DNA of 64,000 nucleotides, taken from contig JAUQQC010000003.1 of the NCBI GenBank assembly GCA_030550025.1, positions 163,464-227,463 of the forward strand. Direction: 5' to 3'. Under the pieces are notes generated by a model that saw only the letters and a list, made by a program, of their open reading frames with translations, did not search any database and was not told the DNA's origin. Shown here piece by piece: positions 21,489 to 43,432 of the stretch (positions are counted from its first letter, which is position 1; every line of letters begins with the position of its first letter). The position numbers and the translations under genes are program-made. This DNA is from Acidobacteriota bacterium (lineage in GTDB: Bacteria > Acidobacteriota > Blastocatellia > HR10).

Positions 21489-22631
21489 TCAGAGGCGCGC
21501 GAGCGCTTGATCGAGATCGGCGAGGATATCTTCGACATCTTCGCATCCGACCGAGATCCGAATCAAGCCTTCCGTGATGCCCAGGCGTTGGCGCTCTTCG
21601 GGCGGCACACTGGCATGCGTCATCGTCGCCGGATGCGAGATGAGCGTCTCGACGCCCCCCAGACTCTCAGCCAAAGCGCAGAGGCGCACGTTCTCCAACA
21701 CCGTGCGCGCTTTCTCCAGCGAACCGACGTCGAAGGCGACCATGCCGCCGAATCCCGACATCTGGCGTCGCGCCAACTCATACTGCGGATGCGACGGCAG
21801 CCCGGGATAGTAGACGCGCTCGACGCGCGGATGTTCGGCCAAGAAGCGGGCCACTGCCCGTCCGTTCTCATCGTGCTGCCGCATTCGCAGCGGCAAGGTC
21901 TTGATCCCCCGCAGCACGAGCCAGGCGTCCAGCGGTGAGAGGATCGCCCCAGCGGCGTTCTGCACGAACTTGATCCGTTCGGCATCTTCCGCATCCCGCA
22001 CGACGAGCGCGCCGCCGACGCTGTCGCTGTGGCCGTTCAAATACTTCGTCGTCGAATGCACGACCACATCGGCCCCCAGCTCCAGAGGTCGCTGAAAGTA
22101 TGGGCTCATGAACGTATTATCCACGACCACGCGAATGCCCCGCGGACGCGCCAACTCCGAGATGGCGCGAATGTCGGCCAAGATCATCAGGGGATTGGTC
22201 GGCGTCTCCAAGAAAACCATCCGCGTCTCCGGCCGGATCGCTTGCTCCACCCGCGTCACGTCGCGCGTATCCACGTAACTGAATTCCACGCCGTACTTCC
22301 GCCATACGCGTTCGAACAGCCGAAACGTCCCGCCGTAGACGTTCTCCGAGACGATCACGTGATCGCCCGCGCGCAAGAAGGCCTCCACGAGCGCATTGAT
22401 GGCCGCCATGCCCGAAGCGAACGCGAAGGCCGCCGTTCCCCCCTCCAACGCGGCCAGGCATCGCTCCAGAGCAAAGCGCGTCGGATTCTGCGTGCGCGCA
22501 TATTCATAGCCCTTGTGCTTCCCCAACCCCTCCTGCGCATACGTTGAGGTCTGGTAGATGGGGACGCTCACGGCCCCCGTCGTCGGGTCCGGCTCGCTCC
22601 CGATGTGGATCGCTTTCGTCGCGAATTTCAT
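21489..22631 (-). CDS. Cystathionine gamma-synthase/lyase family PLP enzyme
   Basis: A 380-residue fold-type I PLP enzyme. It has KAIHIGSEPDPTTGAVSVPIY at the N-terminus, YxRTQNPTR, ASGMAA for cofactor binding, VVDNTFMSPY and the Schiff-base Lys in HSTTKYLNGHSD, with a C-terminal LIRISVGCED. This is the Cys/Met-metabolism family (MetB, cystathionine gamma-lyase, methionine gamma-lyase, MetZ); sequence alone does not decide between them. Its ATG overlaps the stop of the selenocysteine peroxiredoxin by 4 bases (ATGA), so the two are co-translated. Confidence 0.92.
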   Translation of the reverse strand: MKFATKAIHIGSEPDPTTGAVSVPIYQTSTYAQEGLGKHKGYEYARTQNPTRFALERCLAALEGGTAAFAFASGMAAINALVEAFLRAGDHVIVSENVYGGTFRLFERVWRKYGVEFSYVDTRDVTRVEQAIRPETRMVFLETPTNPLMILADIRAISELARPRGIRVVVDNTFMSPYFQRPLELGADVVVHSTTKYLNGHSDSVGGALVVRDAEDAERIKFVQNAAGAILSPLDAWLVLRGIKTLPLRMRQHDENGRAVARFLAEHPRVERVYYPGLPSHPQYELARRQMSGFGGMVAFDVGSLEKARTVLENVRLCALAESLGGVETLISHPATMTHASVPPEERQRLGITEGLIRISVGCEDVEDILADLDQALARL

Positions 22632-23200
22632 CGTTTCTCCTTCCCACTCAGGATTTGGCAGGCTTGGCGCGCGCCCGAGGGATCAATGGCCGAGGCACCT
22701 TGTTCAATATAGCGAATGATCCCCTCCCGATCAATGACGAAGGTCGTGCGACGGGCCACGCCGCGTTCTTCATCTAAGACGCCGTAGAGCCGAGAGACCT
22801 TTCGTTGGAAGTCGCTGAGCAGCGGATAGGTGATGCCTAAGTCCTCGGCGAAGCGCTTATTGGCGAAGGGGCTGTCCACGCTGATGCCCAAGATCTGCGT
22901 CTCCATCGCTTCGAATTTGGCCACATCATCCTGATAGGCCTTCAGCTCGCGCGCTCAGCCGCCGGTGAAGGCGAGGACATAGAAGGCGAGCACAACATTC
23001 TTCTTCCCCCGAAAGTCCGAGAGGCGCACGGGACGATTCTCCTGATCCGGCAGCGTGAAATCGGGGGCCGGATCCCCTACCTTCAGAGGGGTTGAAGGGG
23101 CCGCGCGCTCCTGCACGAGCACGAGCGGCGACCGCACCCCCGACAGCAGGAACAGGAAGACGCCCAGGCACACCGCGTATCGAAAAACGTTTCTCCCCAT
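22628..23200 (-). CDS. Peroxiredoxin-like selenoprotein (in-frame TGA read as Sec), exported
   Basis: One frame runs from ATG 23200 to TGA 22630-22628, interrupted only by a TGA at 22957-22955 (codon 82). Read through, it is a complete 190-residue AhpC/TSA peroxiredoxin: a signal or anchor helix (AVCLGVFLFLLSG), VGDPAPDFTLPDQENRPVRLSDF, VVLAFYVLAFTGG-U-ARELKAYQDD, ILGISVDSPFANKRFAEDLGITYPLLSD and TFVIDREGIIRYI. The TGA is exactly where the peroxidatic Cys (FTGGC in Cys homologues) belongs, and coding similarity continues on both sides, so it is not a random stop. AAGGAGG precedes the ATG. It should reduce peroxides in the periplasm or at the membrane. The downstream PLP enzyme overlaps it by 4 bases. 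Confidence 0.88.
22913..22943 (-). promoter_or_regulatory. Candidate bacterial SECIS hairpin downstream of the Sec codon
   Basis: Counting from the base after the TGA, 15-18 (GGCC) pair with 33-36 (GGCC), and 20-22 (AUC) pair with 28-30 (GAU), leaving an apical loop AGGAU at 23-27 and a bulged U at 19. GAA (12-14) can extend the stem with UUC (40-42) across an AAA bulge. An apical loop with GG and a bulged U about 17 bases after the codon are the features SelB recognises in known bacterial SECIS elements. Folded by eye only. Confidence 0.6.
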
Positions 23201-23270
23201 TGGCGTTCCTCCTTGCGAGATGATCTCCCTCCCTTTTCTCCCGAAGCCCGCGCACGGAGTGGCGCTTCGG

Positions 23271-23852
23271 TCACGTCCCCGGCTTCCGCACTTCGCGCAC
23301 CCGTTCGAGATATCTCCCCGTCTCCACCTCGATGCGCACGATCTCCCCCTCCTTGATGAACTGCGGGACGAGCACCTCCATGCCGTTCTCCAGAATCACG
23401 GTCTTATAGGTGCTCGTCTCATGCTCGCGCAATCCGGGTGGGGCCGAGACGACTTTCAACTCCACGACCTCCGGGAAGACGACGTTCACCGGCACGCCGT
23501 CGTACATCTCGACGGGGATGCGCATGTTCGGCTGCAGGAATCGCTCGCGATGCCCGATCGCCTCGCGCGGGAGACTGATCTGCTCAAACGTCTCCGGATT
23601 CATGAAGTAGAAGTCCTCGCCATCGGTGTAGAGATACTCCATCTCCTGGCGCTCGAGCATCACGTCTTCGAGTTTCTCATCGGGATGGAAGCGCCACTCC
23701 TTGATGTGGTGGGTCCGAAGGTTCCGCGCCTTGGCGAACATCATCCCGCCGAATTGTCCGCCACCGGCGTGGTATTCGGCCTCGATGATGCGATATAACT
23801 CGCCCTCGATCTTAATCACCATGCCCGCTCTGAGGTCGGCTGCCGTGATCAT
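23271..23852 (-). CDS. efp: Elongation factor P, atypical loop tip
   Basis: A 193-residue protein starting at ATG 23852 (MITAADLRAGMVIKIEGELY). It has the three-domain EF-P layout: KOW-like domain I, then RFLQPNMRIPVEMYDGVPVNVVFPEVVELKVV (domain II) and a C-terminal ILENGMEVLVPQFIKEGEIVRIEVETGRYLERV block. EF-P rescues ribosomes stalled at polyproline. Domain I has HAGGGQFGGMM (residues 28-38) where Lys- or Arg-type EF-P has HxKPGKG or similar, so neither modified Lys nor Arg is at the tip. A longer frame upstream is a shadow of the divergent permease gene. Confidence 0.9.
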   Translation of the reverse strand: MITAADLRAGMVIKIEGELYRIIEAEYHAGGGQFGGMMFAKARNLRTHHIKEWRFHPDEKLEDVMLERQEMEYLYTDGEDFYFMNPETFEQISLPREAIGHRERFLQPNMRIPVEMYDGVPVNVVFPEVVELKVVSAPPGLREHETSTYKTVILENGMEVLVPQFIKEGEIVRIEVETGRYLERVREVRKPGT

Positions 23853-40371: not shown

Positions 40372-42624
40372 TCACCCTCCGGCGACTCGGCTCGGTCCGG
40401 CTTCTTCGAGCGCCCGAATCACCAATCCGGGCGTCAGAAGCTCCGGCAACGTGATCGGTTCGGTCAATCGGCCGGCCGGGAAGATGACGTAGAAAGGCAC
40501 TCCGGAGCGGCCGAATTTATTGAGCATCTGCGTGATCTCCGGATTTCGATTCGTCCAATCAGCCCGAATGGCCGTCACGCGCAACTCGCGCATCTTTCGG
40601 CGAACGGCCTCCGACTGCAGGACCGCTCGTTCATTCACCTTGCAGTTCCAGCACCAGTCAGCGGTGAAGTCAATGAAGACCGTCTCCCCGCGCTGCACGC
40701 GTCGCTCGATGTCCGCCAGTGAGAAGGGCTTCCACTCGATCTCGTCGGCGGATGGGGTGGCCGACTGCTCGGACGCCAGCGCGCGTGCCTCTCGCCACCG
40801 CAGCTCTTTCTCGAAGGCCCAGAGATAACCGCCAATGACGAGCACCGCCGCGATGCCCCACGTTCCCCATCGTCGCCACGATGAGGTGTGCGGCTCCAGT
40901 TGCCCAATCATCCACGCGGCGATGGCCACAAAGAGAAGGAAAACGCCCGTCCAGATGACGGCTTCCACCCCCAGCTGACTCCCCAACACATCCAGGAGCC
41001 AGAGCAACGCCCCCAGCAGCAGAAAGCCCATCGCTTGCTTGAACCGCACCATCCATGCTCCGGGTCGGGGAACGAATCGAAGCCACTGCGGATGCCACGA
41101 GAGCACGACATAGGGGAGCGCCAACCCCACTGCGATCGCCGTGAAGACGAGCCAGATGATGCGCCCCGGCTGCGCGAAAGCGAAGCCCACCGCCGTCCCC
41201 AAAAAGGGCGCCGTACAGGGCGTCGCCAACGTCGTCGCCAGGACACCGTTGAAGAACGCGCCGACTAGACCCGGCTGCTCCAACCACCGAGAGCGTACGC
41301 TCGGACTCCGAAACTCGAAGACGCCCAGGAGACTAAGCGCGAAGACGAAGACCACCGTGCTGATGACGACGACGAACGTCGGAGACTGAAACTGAAAGCC
41401 CCACCCGACCTGCTCACCCGTTGCTCGAAGGGCGATCACGATGAGCGCTAACGCCCACAGCGAGACGAGCACGCCCGCGGCGAAGCTCATGCCCATCATA
41501 CGCACACGCCGGTGGTCTTCCCCCGCTTGATGCACGAAGCCCAAAATCTTGATCGAAAGGACAGGTAACACACAAGGCGTGATATTGAGGATGATCCCGC
41601 CAAGTAGTGCCAACAGCAAAATCATCACCAGCGAGTGCGAACGCTCCTGTGGCCCCCTCACACGGAACGACAGATTCAACCAATTCGCTCCACCTGCAGC
41701 GCTTCCCTCCGGCACGGTCTCGAGCTCATTCCTCTCCTCGCGCGCCTCGCTTTCAGCAGGAGCGGGCTTGGCGGACTCGACGCCTTCGGAAGCGACCGGA
41801 GCGAACGCAGAGCCGAGCGTCGCGCGCAGTTCATACGCTCCCCGCTCCGTCACCACGATGCCGCTCACTGTATCGCCGATCGTCTCCCGAGCGTCCAGCT
41901 CCACGGGGATGAGGATTGAACGCCCGGAGACCTTCACCCCCCCATGCTGAATCGCCGCGCCTTTCATGCGTCGCGGGAAGAACTCTTGCACCGCAACGCG
42001 TCCCGCGAGTTCAAGGCGCAGCGTTCCTCGACGCGCCTCTTGCGGCGTCCACTCTACTTTAACGACGCGAATCGAACTCCGACTCATCGGCTGCGGGACG
42101 GCGCGCGCAAAGCGCGCGATCAGCTCCGCCTCAGGACCCGGCTCCGTCCGCCCGATGGGCAACGTGAGCTGAAGCTTCGCCGCACCAGGGAGACACACTT
42201 CCTTACATACGAGCCAATTCGCCGCCGCTTCCAGCACGACCGATTCGCCCGAAAGCGACGCCGGCGGGATCACCGTCGCCAGTACCATCGCTTCATCCTG
42301 ATAACCGAACGCTGTCATCCCTCCCGATTCCGTATAGCGCCGAGGCGTCGGCCATCGAAGCGGCGAGACGCGGAACCCTTCGGGAAGGGTCCAGGTGACG
42401 CGAATTGGCAGCCCGGCATCTCCCGGATTCTCCCAGTAGATGTGCCATCCAGGCTCGATCTGAAAATACACGCCGACAGTGAACGCCCGCCCGGGCTGCA
42501 CGGCAGCGACATCCGTCACAAGGCGCGGCGTCACGATGCGACGCCCTTGATGTATCTGCGCCGAGGCGACGAGCACCAACGCCGCCAGCAGCAGGCTGAG
42601 GCCGAAGATCAATCGCCCTTTCAT
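40372..42624 (-). CDS. DsbD-family thiol:disulfide interchange protein
   Basis: A 750-residue protein from ATG 42624. A signal peptide precedes a periplasmic DsbD-alpha-like domain with the Cys pair of VCKEVCLPG, then the transmembrane core of about eight helices with NITPCVLPVLSIKILG and TTLATPCTAPFLG (the two redox-active Cys), and a C-terminal thioredoxin domain with FIDFTADWCWNCKVNERAV. Electrons pass from cytoplasmic thioredoxin across the membrane to periplasmic thiol proteins. In this genome it could also feed the exported selenocysteine peroxiredoxin. The aminotransferase follows after 61 bases. Confidence 0.92.
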   Translation of the reverse strand: MKGRLIFGLSLLLAALVLVASAQIHQGRRIVTPRLVTDVAAVQPGRAFTVGVYFQIEPGWHIYWENPGDAGLPIRVTWTLPEGFRVSPLRWPTPRRYTESGGMTAFGYQDEAMVLATVIPPASLSGESVVLEAAANWLVCKEVCLPGAAKLQLTLPIGRTEPGPEAELIARFARAVPQPMSRSSIRVVKVEWTPQEARRGTLRLELAGRVAVQEFFPRRMKGAAIQHGGVKVSGRSILIPVELDARETIGDTVSGIVVTERGAYELRATLGSAFAPVASEGVESAKPAPAESEAREERNELETVPEGSAAGGANWLNLSFRVRGPQERSHSLVMILLLALLGGIILNITPCVLPVLSIKILGFVHQAGEDHRRVRMMGMSFAAGVLVSLWALALIVIALRATGEQVGWGFQFQSPTFVVVISTVVFVFALSLLGVFEFRSPSVRSRWLEQPGLVGAFFNGVLATTLATPCTAPFLGTAVGFAFAQPGRIIWLVFTAIAVGLALPYVVLSWHPQWLRFVPRPGAWMVRFKQAMGFLLLGALLWLLDVLGSQLGVEAVIWTGVFLLFVAIAAWMIGQLEPHTSSWRRWGTWGIAAVLVIGGYLWAFEKELRWREARALASEQSATPSADEIEWKPFSLADIERRVQRGETVFIDFTADWCWNCKVNERAVLQSEAVRRKMRELRVTAIRADWTNRNPEITQMLNKFGRSGVPFYVIFPAGRLTEPITLPELLTPGLVIRALEEAGPSRVAGG

Positions 42625-42676
42625 CACGGAGATGCCCCCTTTGACGATATTCACATGACTCCCCTTCGGAAACTCC

Positions 42677-43432
42677 TCACGATGCCGGCTTCGCAAACTT
42701 GCCCCCCTCGATCGGGACATTGTGCTTCACCTCTTCCGTCCTGAGGATCAAGGAGAACACGGGAGAGACCTGTCGCACCGTGAAAGGCAACCGCAAGCCA
42801 TCCACCTCGCGGTAATCCTCTAAGTATACTTCCAACGGGATCTTCCCCTGCGGCCCTTCGCGCTCCACGTCCACTCGTTTGAGCAACCCGGTTGTGACAT
42901 CGAAATACCATCGTTCGGCACTCCCCTCCGCTGGTGTAGCCTCCAACACATAAACCTCGCTTCCGCCCACCGTCTCTCTCCCCTTCAGCGTGATCTTCGG
43001 ATACAGCTCCGTCAATCGGAGCGGCTTGTAGAAATCGGCATCCAACCGCGTCGCCGAAAGCTCCCGCCCGCTCTTCTCCCGAACACCCGTGAACGGATCT
43101 TTCACCCACGCCACGGCGCCATCGAAACCTTCCTGAATTGTCCCCAACCCCGGCAATTCGATGGTGACCGCGACCTTGTTAGGGGCCTGGGCGTAGGACT
43201 CGAATGTGCCCCGCACACCGGCGGCGGGGATCTCCACCGTCCCGCGAGAAATCCGACTCGTCACTCTCCCCAATGCTTCTTTCCCTCCGCACGCTTGAAT
43301 ATATCGCTGAAGCACCTGTTCCACCGTCACCTCAACGGGCGTGACGGCCTGCGATGGTCTCTCCTGCCCAGCCCACCCCCACGAGGACAGGACACCCCAC
43401 AGCATGAGGATTCCGATCCATCGGTGTTTCAT
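42677..43432 (-). CDS. Exported LolA-like lipoprotein-sorting-type protein
   Basis: A 251-residue protein with a clear signal peptide (IGILMLWGVLSSWGWAG). The mature part, with VEQVLQRYIQACGGKEAL, GFDGAVAWVKDP, YPKITLKGRETVGGSEVYVLEATPAEGSAERWYFDVTTGLLKRVDVE and DYREVDGLRLPF, fits the half-barrel of outer-membrane lipoprotein-sorting-like proteins. These are abundant in Acidobacteriota and their ligands are unknown. It is 4 bases behind an S41 peptidase and 52 bases before DsbD, suggesting a secreted-protein quality operon. Confidence 0.75.
   Translation of the reverse strand: MKHRWIGILMLWGVLSSWGWAGQERPSQAVTPVEVTVEQVLQRYIQACGGKEALGRVTSRISRGTVEIPAAGVRGTFESYAQAPNKVAVTIELPGLGTIQEGFDGAVAWVKDPFTGVREKSGRELSATRLDADFYKPLRLTELYPKITLKGRETVGGSEVYVLEATPAEGSAERWYFDVTTGLLKRVDVEREGPQGKIPLEVYLEDYREVDGLRLPFTVRQVSPVFSLILRTEEVKHNVPIEGGKFAKPAS

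Follow-up and report, generated by a model that had tools for sequence, protein, structure and literature searches.

A putative exported AhpE-like selenocysteine peroxiredoxin with a conserved late cysteine in Acidobacteriota

Peroxiredoxins that carry selenocysteine (Sec) in a TxxU active site, such as that of Eubacterium acidaminophilum, are an established family in the accessible text of two reviews (PMC9312934, PMC13188914), as the initial annotation of the present locus had assumed when it called peroxiredoxin-like selenoproteins a known class. The motif PxxxTxxU is described as highly conserved among them in the accessible part of the 2026 review (PMC13188914). As far as their accessible text goes, a 2006 survey counted 12 Sec peroxiredoxins and assigned four selenoproteins in three families to the Acidobacteria (PMC1794560), and a 2025 tool paper lists three known selenoproteins in one acidobacterium (PMC12013277). 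Neither export nor a late cysteine appears in the available portions of the review accounts of Sec peroxiredoxins (PMC9312934, PMC13188914). A full-text literature search, covering the readable main texts and a minority of subscription papers, found no account in which a Sec peroxiredoxin is exported. One of the closest described proteins of known structure is AhpE of Mycobacterium tuberculosis, a 1-Cys peroxiredoxin (PDB 1xvw, 4x0x and 5id2).

The window, the whole 64,000-nucleotide stretch of Acidobacteriota DNA analyzed here, comes from an assembly of 3.17 Mb that is 98.7% complete. Its minus strand from 23200 to 22628 forms a single frame composed of 81 codons, a TGA (22957-22955), 108 further codons and the stop TGA (22630-22628), which reads through as M...AFTGG-TGA-ARELKAY...EKR-TGA (Table 1). 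Residues 41-165 of the read-through protein match the entire Pfam AhpC-TSA model with 143.3 bits (E 4.7e-42; gathering score 26). The structure model has a mean pLDDT of 91.4 and a pTM of 0.80, and places Sec82 in a helix of residues 80-91 and Cys181 in a helix of residues 175-189. Structural similarity search revealed two equally close solved structures, M. tuberculosis AhpE (PDB 5id2, chain A; 45% identity; Z 26.0, 150 residues superposed with an RMSD of 1.3 Å) and Bcp1 (Z 26.1). The TGA at codon 82 falls on the peroxidatic site of an AhpE-like peroxiredoxin, in agreement with the annotated catalytic position.

Table 1. Coordinates of the selenoprotein gene, its elements and related genes within the window
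Feature	Position	Strand	Remark
AhpE-like peroxiredoxin with Sec and N-terminal export segment	22628..23200	-	190 aa, frame read through the TGA
Predicted Shine-Dalgarno-like AAGGAGG	23208..23214	-	7 nt 5' of the ATG; read from the sequence
Predicted hydrophobic segment for export at the N-terminus, residues 1 to about 31	23108..23200	-	such a segment precedes the domain in 96/96 homologues
TGA, selenocysteine 82, peroxidatic position (TGG-U)	22955..22957	-	frame, homologue alignment
SECIS-like mRNA hairpin	22919..22940	-	covariation and null tests
Arg151	22748..22750	-	invariant across 61 aligned homologues
Cys181, candidate resolving Cys, C-terminal helix 175-189	22658..22660	-	sole Cys past Sec
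Cys/Met metabolism PLP enzyme (cystathionine gamma-synthase/lyase type)	21489..22631	-	start overlaps the peroxiredoxin stop
Elongation factor P, upstream gene	23271..23852	-	name presumed
DsbD (DsbD_N, DsbD_TM, thioredoxin-like domain)	40372..42720	-	candidate electron route to the periplasm

The window protein and AhpE are alike in sequence (phmmer E 1e-32), fold, the TxxC/U site and the active-site Arg, where Arg151 aligns with the AhpE residue mutated in the R116A structure, which we take to be Arg116 in AhpE numbering. However, AhpE has a Cys together with a Pro in its active site (FFPLAFTGIC) and its solved chains begin at the domain, whereas the window protein has Sec, a Val in place of the Pro, an export segment and Cys181. 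As a 1-Cys enzyme, AhpE is defined by the lack of a second redox Cys, and each of the 96 homologues collected here has a late Cys; the window protein is therefore named AhpE-like rather than AhpE. With the Sec peroxiredoxins it shares Sec in the TxxU site of an AhpC/TSA protein, but it has a Val at the Pro position of the PxxxTxxU motif given as highly conserved in the accessible review text (PMC13188914). Despite this motif variant, domain score and fold place it in the Pfam family, and both a Thr or Ser at position -3 and the active-site Arg, as expected of a peroxiredoxin, are in place.

Homologues were collected at two levels. A class search over 162 genomes (E up to 1e-25) gave some match in 108 of them; each of the 73 best rows, which come from 72 genomes and score at least 131 bits, holds one TGA or more, and rows free of TGA begin at 113.5 bits. 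The TGA sits at the same codon in all 70 of these 73 rows that were fetched (G099, G058 and G084 being left out). In a phylum search over 396 genomes drawn evenly (at most 8 candidates scored per genome, E up to 1e-30), 76 genomes gave a match, with TGA-bearing rows on top; the first TGA-free row (G418) scores 136 bits, and below it rows with and without TGA are mixed, a part of all rows having been fetched. The resulting comparison set of 96 distinct Acidobacteriota proteins includes 69 from the class, three from named Acidobacteria (L057-L059) and 24 from phylum loci, after 11 repeats were dropped from 107 and one further TGA-bearing locus (L053) was left out by a filter. Because this set was picked from TGA rows, TGA in 96/96 is a given; independent tests come from the 73 class rows and from the tree.

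In a tree of 126 rows, comprising the 96 proteins, 24 Cys homologues and six other Sec peroxiredoxins, the 96 fall on one side of a single branch with support 98/96, the separating branch being present in 98% of the bootstrap trees. The two top TGA-free hits of the phylum search, G418 and G185, are Cys rows that lie outside this clade, and no Cys form was seen inside it among the fetched rows, 24 Cys homologues being in the tree. A pattern-based scan of named genomes (52 loci), which reaches close relatives, found this form in six only (L054-L059), with records of Blastocatellia, HRbin08/HRbin10 and Acidobacteria. Judged from these sequences, an exported Sec peroxiredoxin of the same kind appears to occur in many Acidobacteriota genomes. 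Around the active site, position -3 is Thr in 94 and Ser in two of the 96 proteins, and position -7 is Val in 80, including the window protein, Pro in 10, Ile in four, Phe in one and Ser in one. By sequence, then, replacement of the Pro is the rule in the clade (86/96) without being universal.

A 13-residue stretch with a mean Kyte-Doolittle hydropathy of at least 1.6 precedes the domain in 96/96 homologues, in a region untrimmed at the start codon. This threshold is a loose one, since 7 of the 17 Cys rows that could be scored also exceed it, seven more having been too short. Those above it include the BCP-type L066, L189 and L190, possibly exported proteins in their own right. Inspected by eye, most N-termini of the clade look like signal peptides, with Lys/Arg at the start and an A-Q-like ending; some homologues, such as L034 and L041, have a lipobox-like Cys, and for L171 and L177 no Met start was found. 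The window protein may stay anchored, since its cleavage site is not obvious. Export, and with it the envelope location previously assigned through a signal or anchor helix, is a prediction from sequence.

The source genome contains the machinery for Sec insertion. A search for selA, selB, selD and a tRNA-Sec with UCA anticodon, proposed with the initial annotation, found all four above curated cut-offs: selA with 584.3 bits (cut-off 268), selB with 373.9 bits (242), selD with 361.6 bits (125) and one in-frame TGA, and tRNA-Sec with 75.9 bits (gathering score 47; next best place 44.4) on a contig other than that of the window, its anticodon given as tca by ARAGORN. Among 14 control genomes, two exceeded the cut-off for selB, one for selA, two for selD and five for tRNA-Sec. 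Searched over the window and the selB locus, Rfam gave no match and ARAGORN no tRNA. In the class, selA is above cut-off in 145/162 genomes, namely in 70 of 72 with an orthologue of the window protein versus 75 of 90 without one (Fisher p 0.004, phylogeny ignored); the two orthologue-bearing genomes without it are G110, at 62% completeness, and G020, at 94% completeness in about 480 contigs. The SelD gene of the source genome (L018, G000:C23:106146-107066) has its TGA at HGAG-TGA-ACK, and SelD is probably a selenoprotein itself.

Selection on the coding sequence is similar on either side of the TGA. Against seven relatives, dN/dS is 0.05-0.12 over the 44 codons before it and 0.04-0.14 over the 101 codons after it, with dS above 1.3 and near saturation for L029-L031, indicating purifying selection on both parts. 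Together with the whole-model AhpC-TSA match, these low ratios confirm that homology continues unbroken on both sides. In the alignment with Cys peroxiredoxins, including AhpE, the TGA position corresponds to Cys. The sequence FTGGC that the initial annotation had ascribed to Cys homologues was found in none of the 24 collected, which read for example FTGVC, FTPVC and FSPVC, compared with FTGIC in AhpE.

Downstream of the TGA, the mRNA could form a hairpin that starts 14 nt past it, with nine base pairs, a GGA loop and a single U bulged out of the 3' arm. With alignment columns numbered from the TGA, 18-26 pair with 30-39 around a three-base loop starting with G. Such a loop at this distance from the UGA is in keeping with bacterial SECIS elements. 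Over the 72 closest rows, of which 58 are distinct, the share of paired cells is 93.9% versus 87.5% in shuffles, 26 cells are doubly changed versus 5.3, and the covariation score is 0.172 versus 0.068, each value being reached in 0/500 shuffles. Two of five covariation measures are ordinary for these 72 rows, namely three pairs with a double change (33/500 shuffles) and seven further pair types (131/500). In a codon-preserving null, where synonymous codons were redrawn per column and amino acid, the observed pairing was reached in 0/5000 draws (mean 88.1%, maximum 92.0%). The pair 21-36 occurs in all four Watson-Crick forms (GC 31, AU 7, CG 7, UA 3, besides GU 3 and other 7), and positions 24-32 form a UA pair in 50 of the 58 distinct rows and a CG pair in the other eight, the C-G form accompanying a change of Asp to Gly. 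Sliding the partner by one column lowers the pairing to 33% or 13%, and sliding it by -3 still leaves 60%.

By folding energy the signal is weak or absent. The window hairpin folded alone is no better than its shuffles (z 0.35), and RNAalifold gives a weak 6-pair hairpin of -2.4 kcal/mol on the 72 closest rows and no pairs on all 96. The 24 distant rows fit this structure less well, with 82.2% of the cells paired over all 96, and may therefore use other hairpins. For the closest rows, the covariation and the codon-preserving null point to a SECIS-type hairpin just 3' of the UGA. Clear covariation would mark the SECIS element of this locus, where one change of a base pair accompanies an amino-acid change.

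As the TGA is conserved in relatives, the hairpin covaries and purifying selection acts on both sides, there is strong sequence evidence that the TGA encodes selenocysteine. If it were instead a true stop, the gene would be a pseudogene, contain a sequencing error or encode two short proteins with a restart at GTG 22924, from which a 98-residue open reading frame does run in the list of frames. Such a stop would hardly recur in all 73 best class rows, be flanked by low dN/dS on both sides and be followed by a compensated hairpin; we regard this reading as barely credible and reject pseudogene, error and stop on the grounds of conservation, selection and hairpin.

The late Cys bears on the mechanism. 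Exactly one Cys follows the Sec in 96/96 proteins, at +86 to +105, and the 40 residues preceding the Sec contain none. Across the 61-row protein alignment Cys181 does not vary, and a Cys at +86 to +105 was found in 0/30 other peroxiredoxin rows. We propose, with good though not full confidence, that the product of the gene is an exported AhpE-like peroxiredoxin with Sec82 in place of the peroxidatic Cys, that decoding is aided by the hairpin, that Cys181 acts as resolving residue and that reduction is fed by DsbD. The UGA would be decoded by SelA, SelB, SelD and tRNA-Sec with the help of the hairpin, and the N-terminal hydrophobic segment would direct the protein to the envelope. There, peroxide would oxidize Sec82 to a selenenic acid, which Cys181, as the sole other redox residue of the mature domain, would most likely resolve as a Sec-Cys bond. 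A periplasmic thioredoxin-like protein fed by DsbD could then reduce this bond. The DsbD encoded in the window is the only DsbD_TM match of the genome, and with its N-terminal and thioredoxin-like domains electrons can reach the periplasm; the peroxidase is perhaps re-reduced by this route.

Two other accounts of an exported selenoprotein compete with this proposal. The enzyme might work as a 1-Cys Sec peroxiredoxin in which, as in AhpE, an external thiol or protein acts directly on the oxidized Sec to reduce it, with Cys181 serving a structural or intersubunit role; the nearest structures are indeed those of AhpE, titled 1-Cys peroxiredoxin, but the invariance of Cys181, the late Cys throughout the clade and its absence from the other peroxiredoxin rows make this fairly unlikely. 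We consider it improbable that the protein is no peroxide scavenger at all and has turned the peroxiredoxin fold into an exported thiol:disulfide selenoprotein for protein folding or signaling. The replaced active-site Pro would suit such a role, as would the fact that no NCBIfam peroxiredoxin model exceeds its cut-off for the window protein (PrxU, NF040737, 88 versus 270 bits); the Thr or Ser at -3 in every homologue and the invariant Arg151 are, however, peroxidase features, and the window protein has no CxxC or UxxC motif.

Beyond the single gene, we tentatively suggest an old exported Sec-Cys subfamily of Acidobacteriota, with no Cys counterpart found here, that would serve as a peroxide sink of the envelope, its Sec82-Cys181 pair receiving electrons from DsbD, and in which selenium chemistry would have let most members shed the active-site Pro. 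The export segment, the late Cys and the loss of the Pro in 86/96 set the clade apart from the known TxxU Sec peroxiredoxins, as these are described in the accessible literature. Under the standard code the gene ends at codon 81, and an apparent envelope antioxidant enzyme of many Acidobacteriota could be missed or taken for a fragment. With Sec in every clade homologue found and no Cys form seen, the clade is naturally suited to testing why peroxide defense outside the cytoplasm retains Sec, how a Sec protein is exported, and whether the peroxiredoxin Pro is dispensable once Se replaces S.

Other Sec proteins on this fold differ from the clade in several respects. A second Sec peroxiredoxin of the same class (L194, L195 and L197) is likewise AhpE-like with a TGA at the peroxidatic codon, but it keeps the Pro (FYPLAWTPV-U), shows no hydrophobic segment, has a Cys at +31 only and forms a separate clade. 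In Planctomycetota, the AhpC/TSA-type proteins L093 and L105 resemble the window protein in having an in-frame TGA and a hydrophobic N-terminal segment, so that the clade is not alone in suggesting a Sec protein of the envelope built on this fold; they differ in the Sec site (GHW-U) and share 36% and 29% identity with the window protein, respectively.

The gene neighborhood varies across the clade. The peroxiredoxin stop overlaps the start of the Cys/Met PLP enzyme (ATGA), which makes the co-translation of the two genes, as initially annotated, plausible at this locus. As a general link it does not hold: the enzyme lies beside the gene in 5/96 loci, all in genus g1 (L024-L028), where it overlaps or abuts in four and is about 376 nt off in L026, and a general functional link with this enzyme was accordingly rejected. 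The order of the upstream gene, which we take to be elongation factor P, then the Sec peroxiredoxin and the Cys/Met PLP enzyme is found at all five g1 loci and not at the other 91, as counted within fetched flanks of mostly 1.5 kb, some ended by contig ends. Inspection by eye of the flanking reading frames at 15 representative loci found no neighbor common across families. Sec also occurs to all appearance in another peroxiredoxin subfamily of the phylum: the BCP-type proteins L072 and L077 from Acidobacteria have a TGA at TSG-TGA and TPG-TGA.
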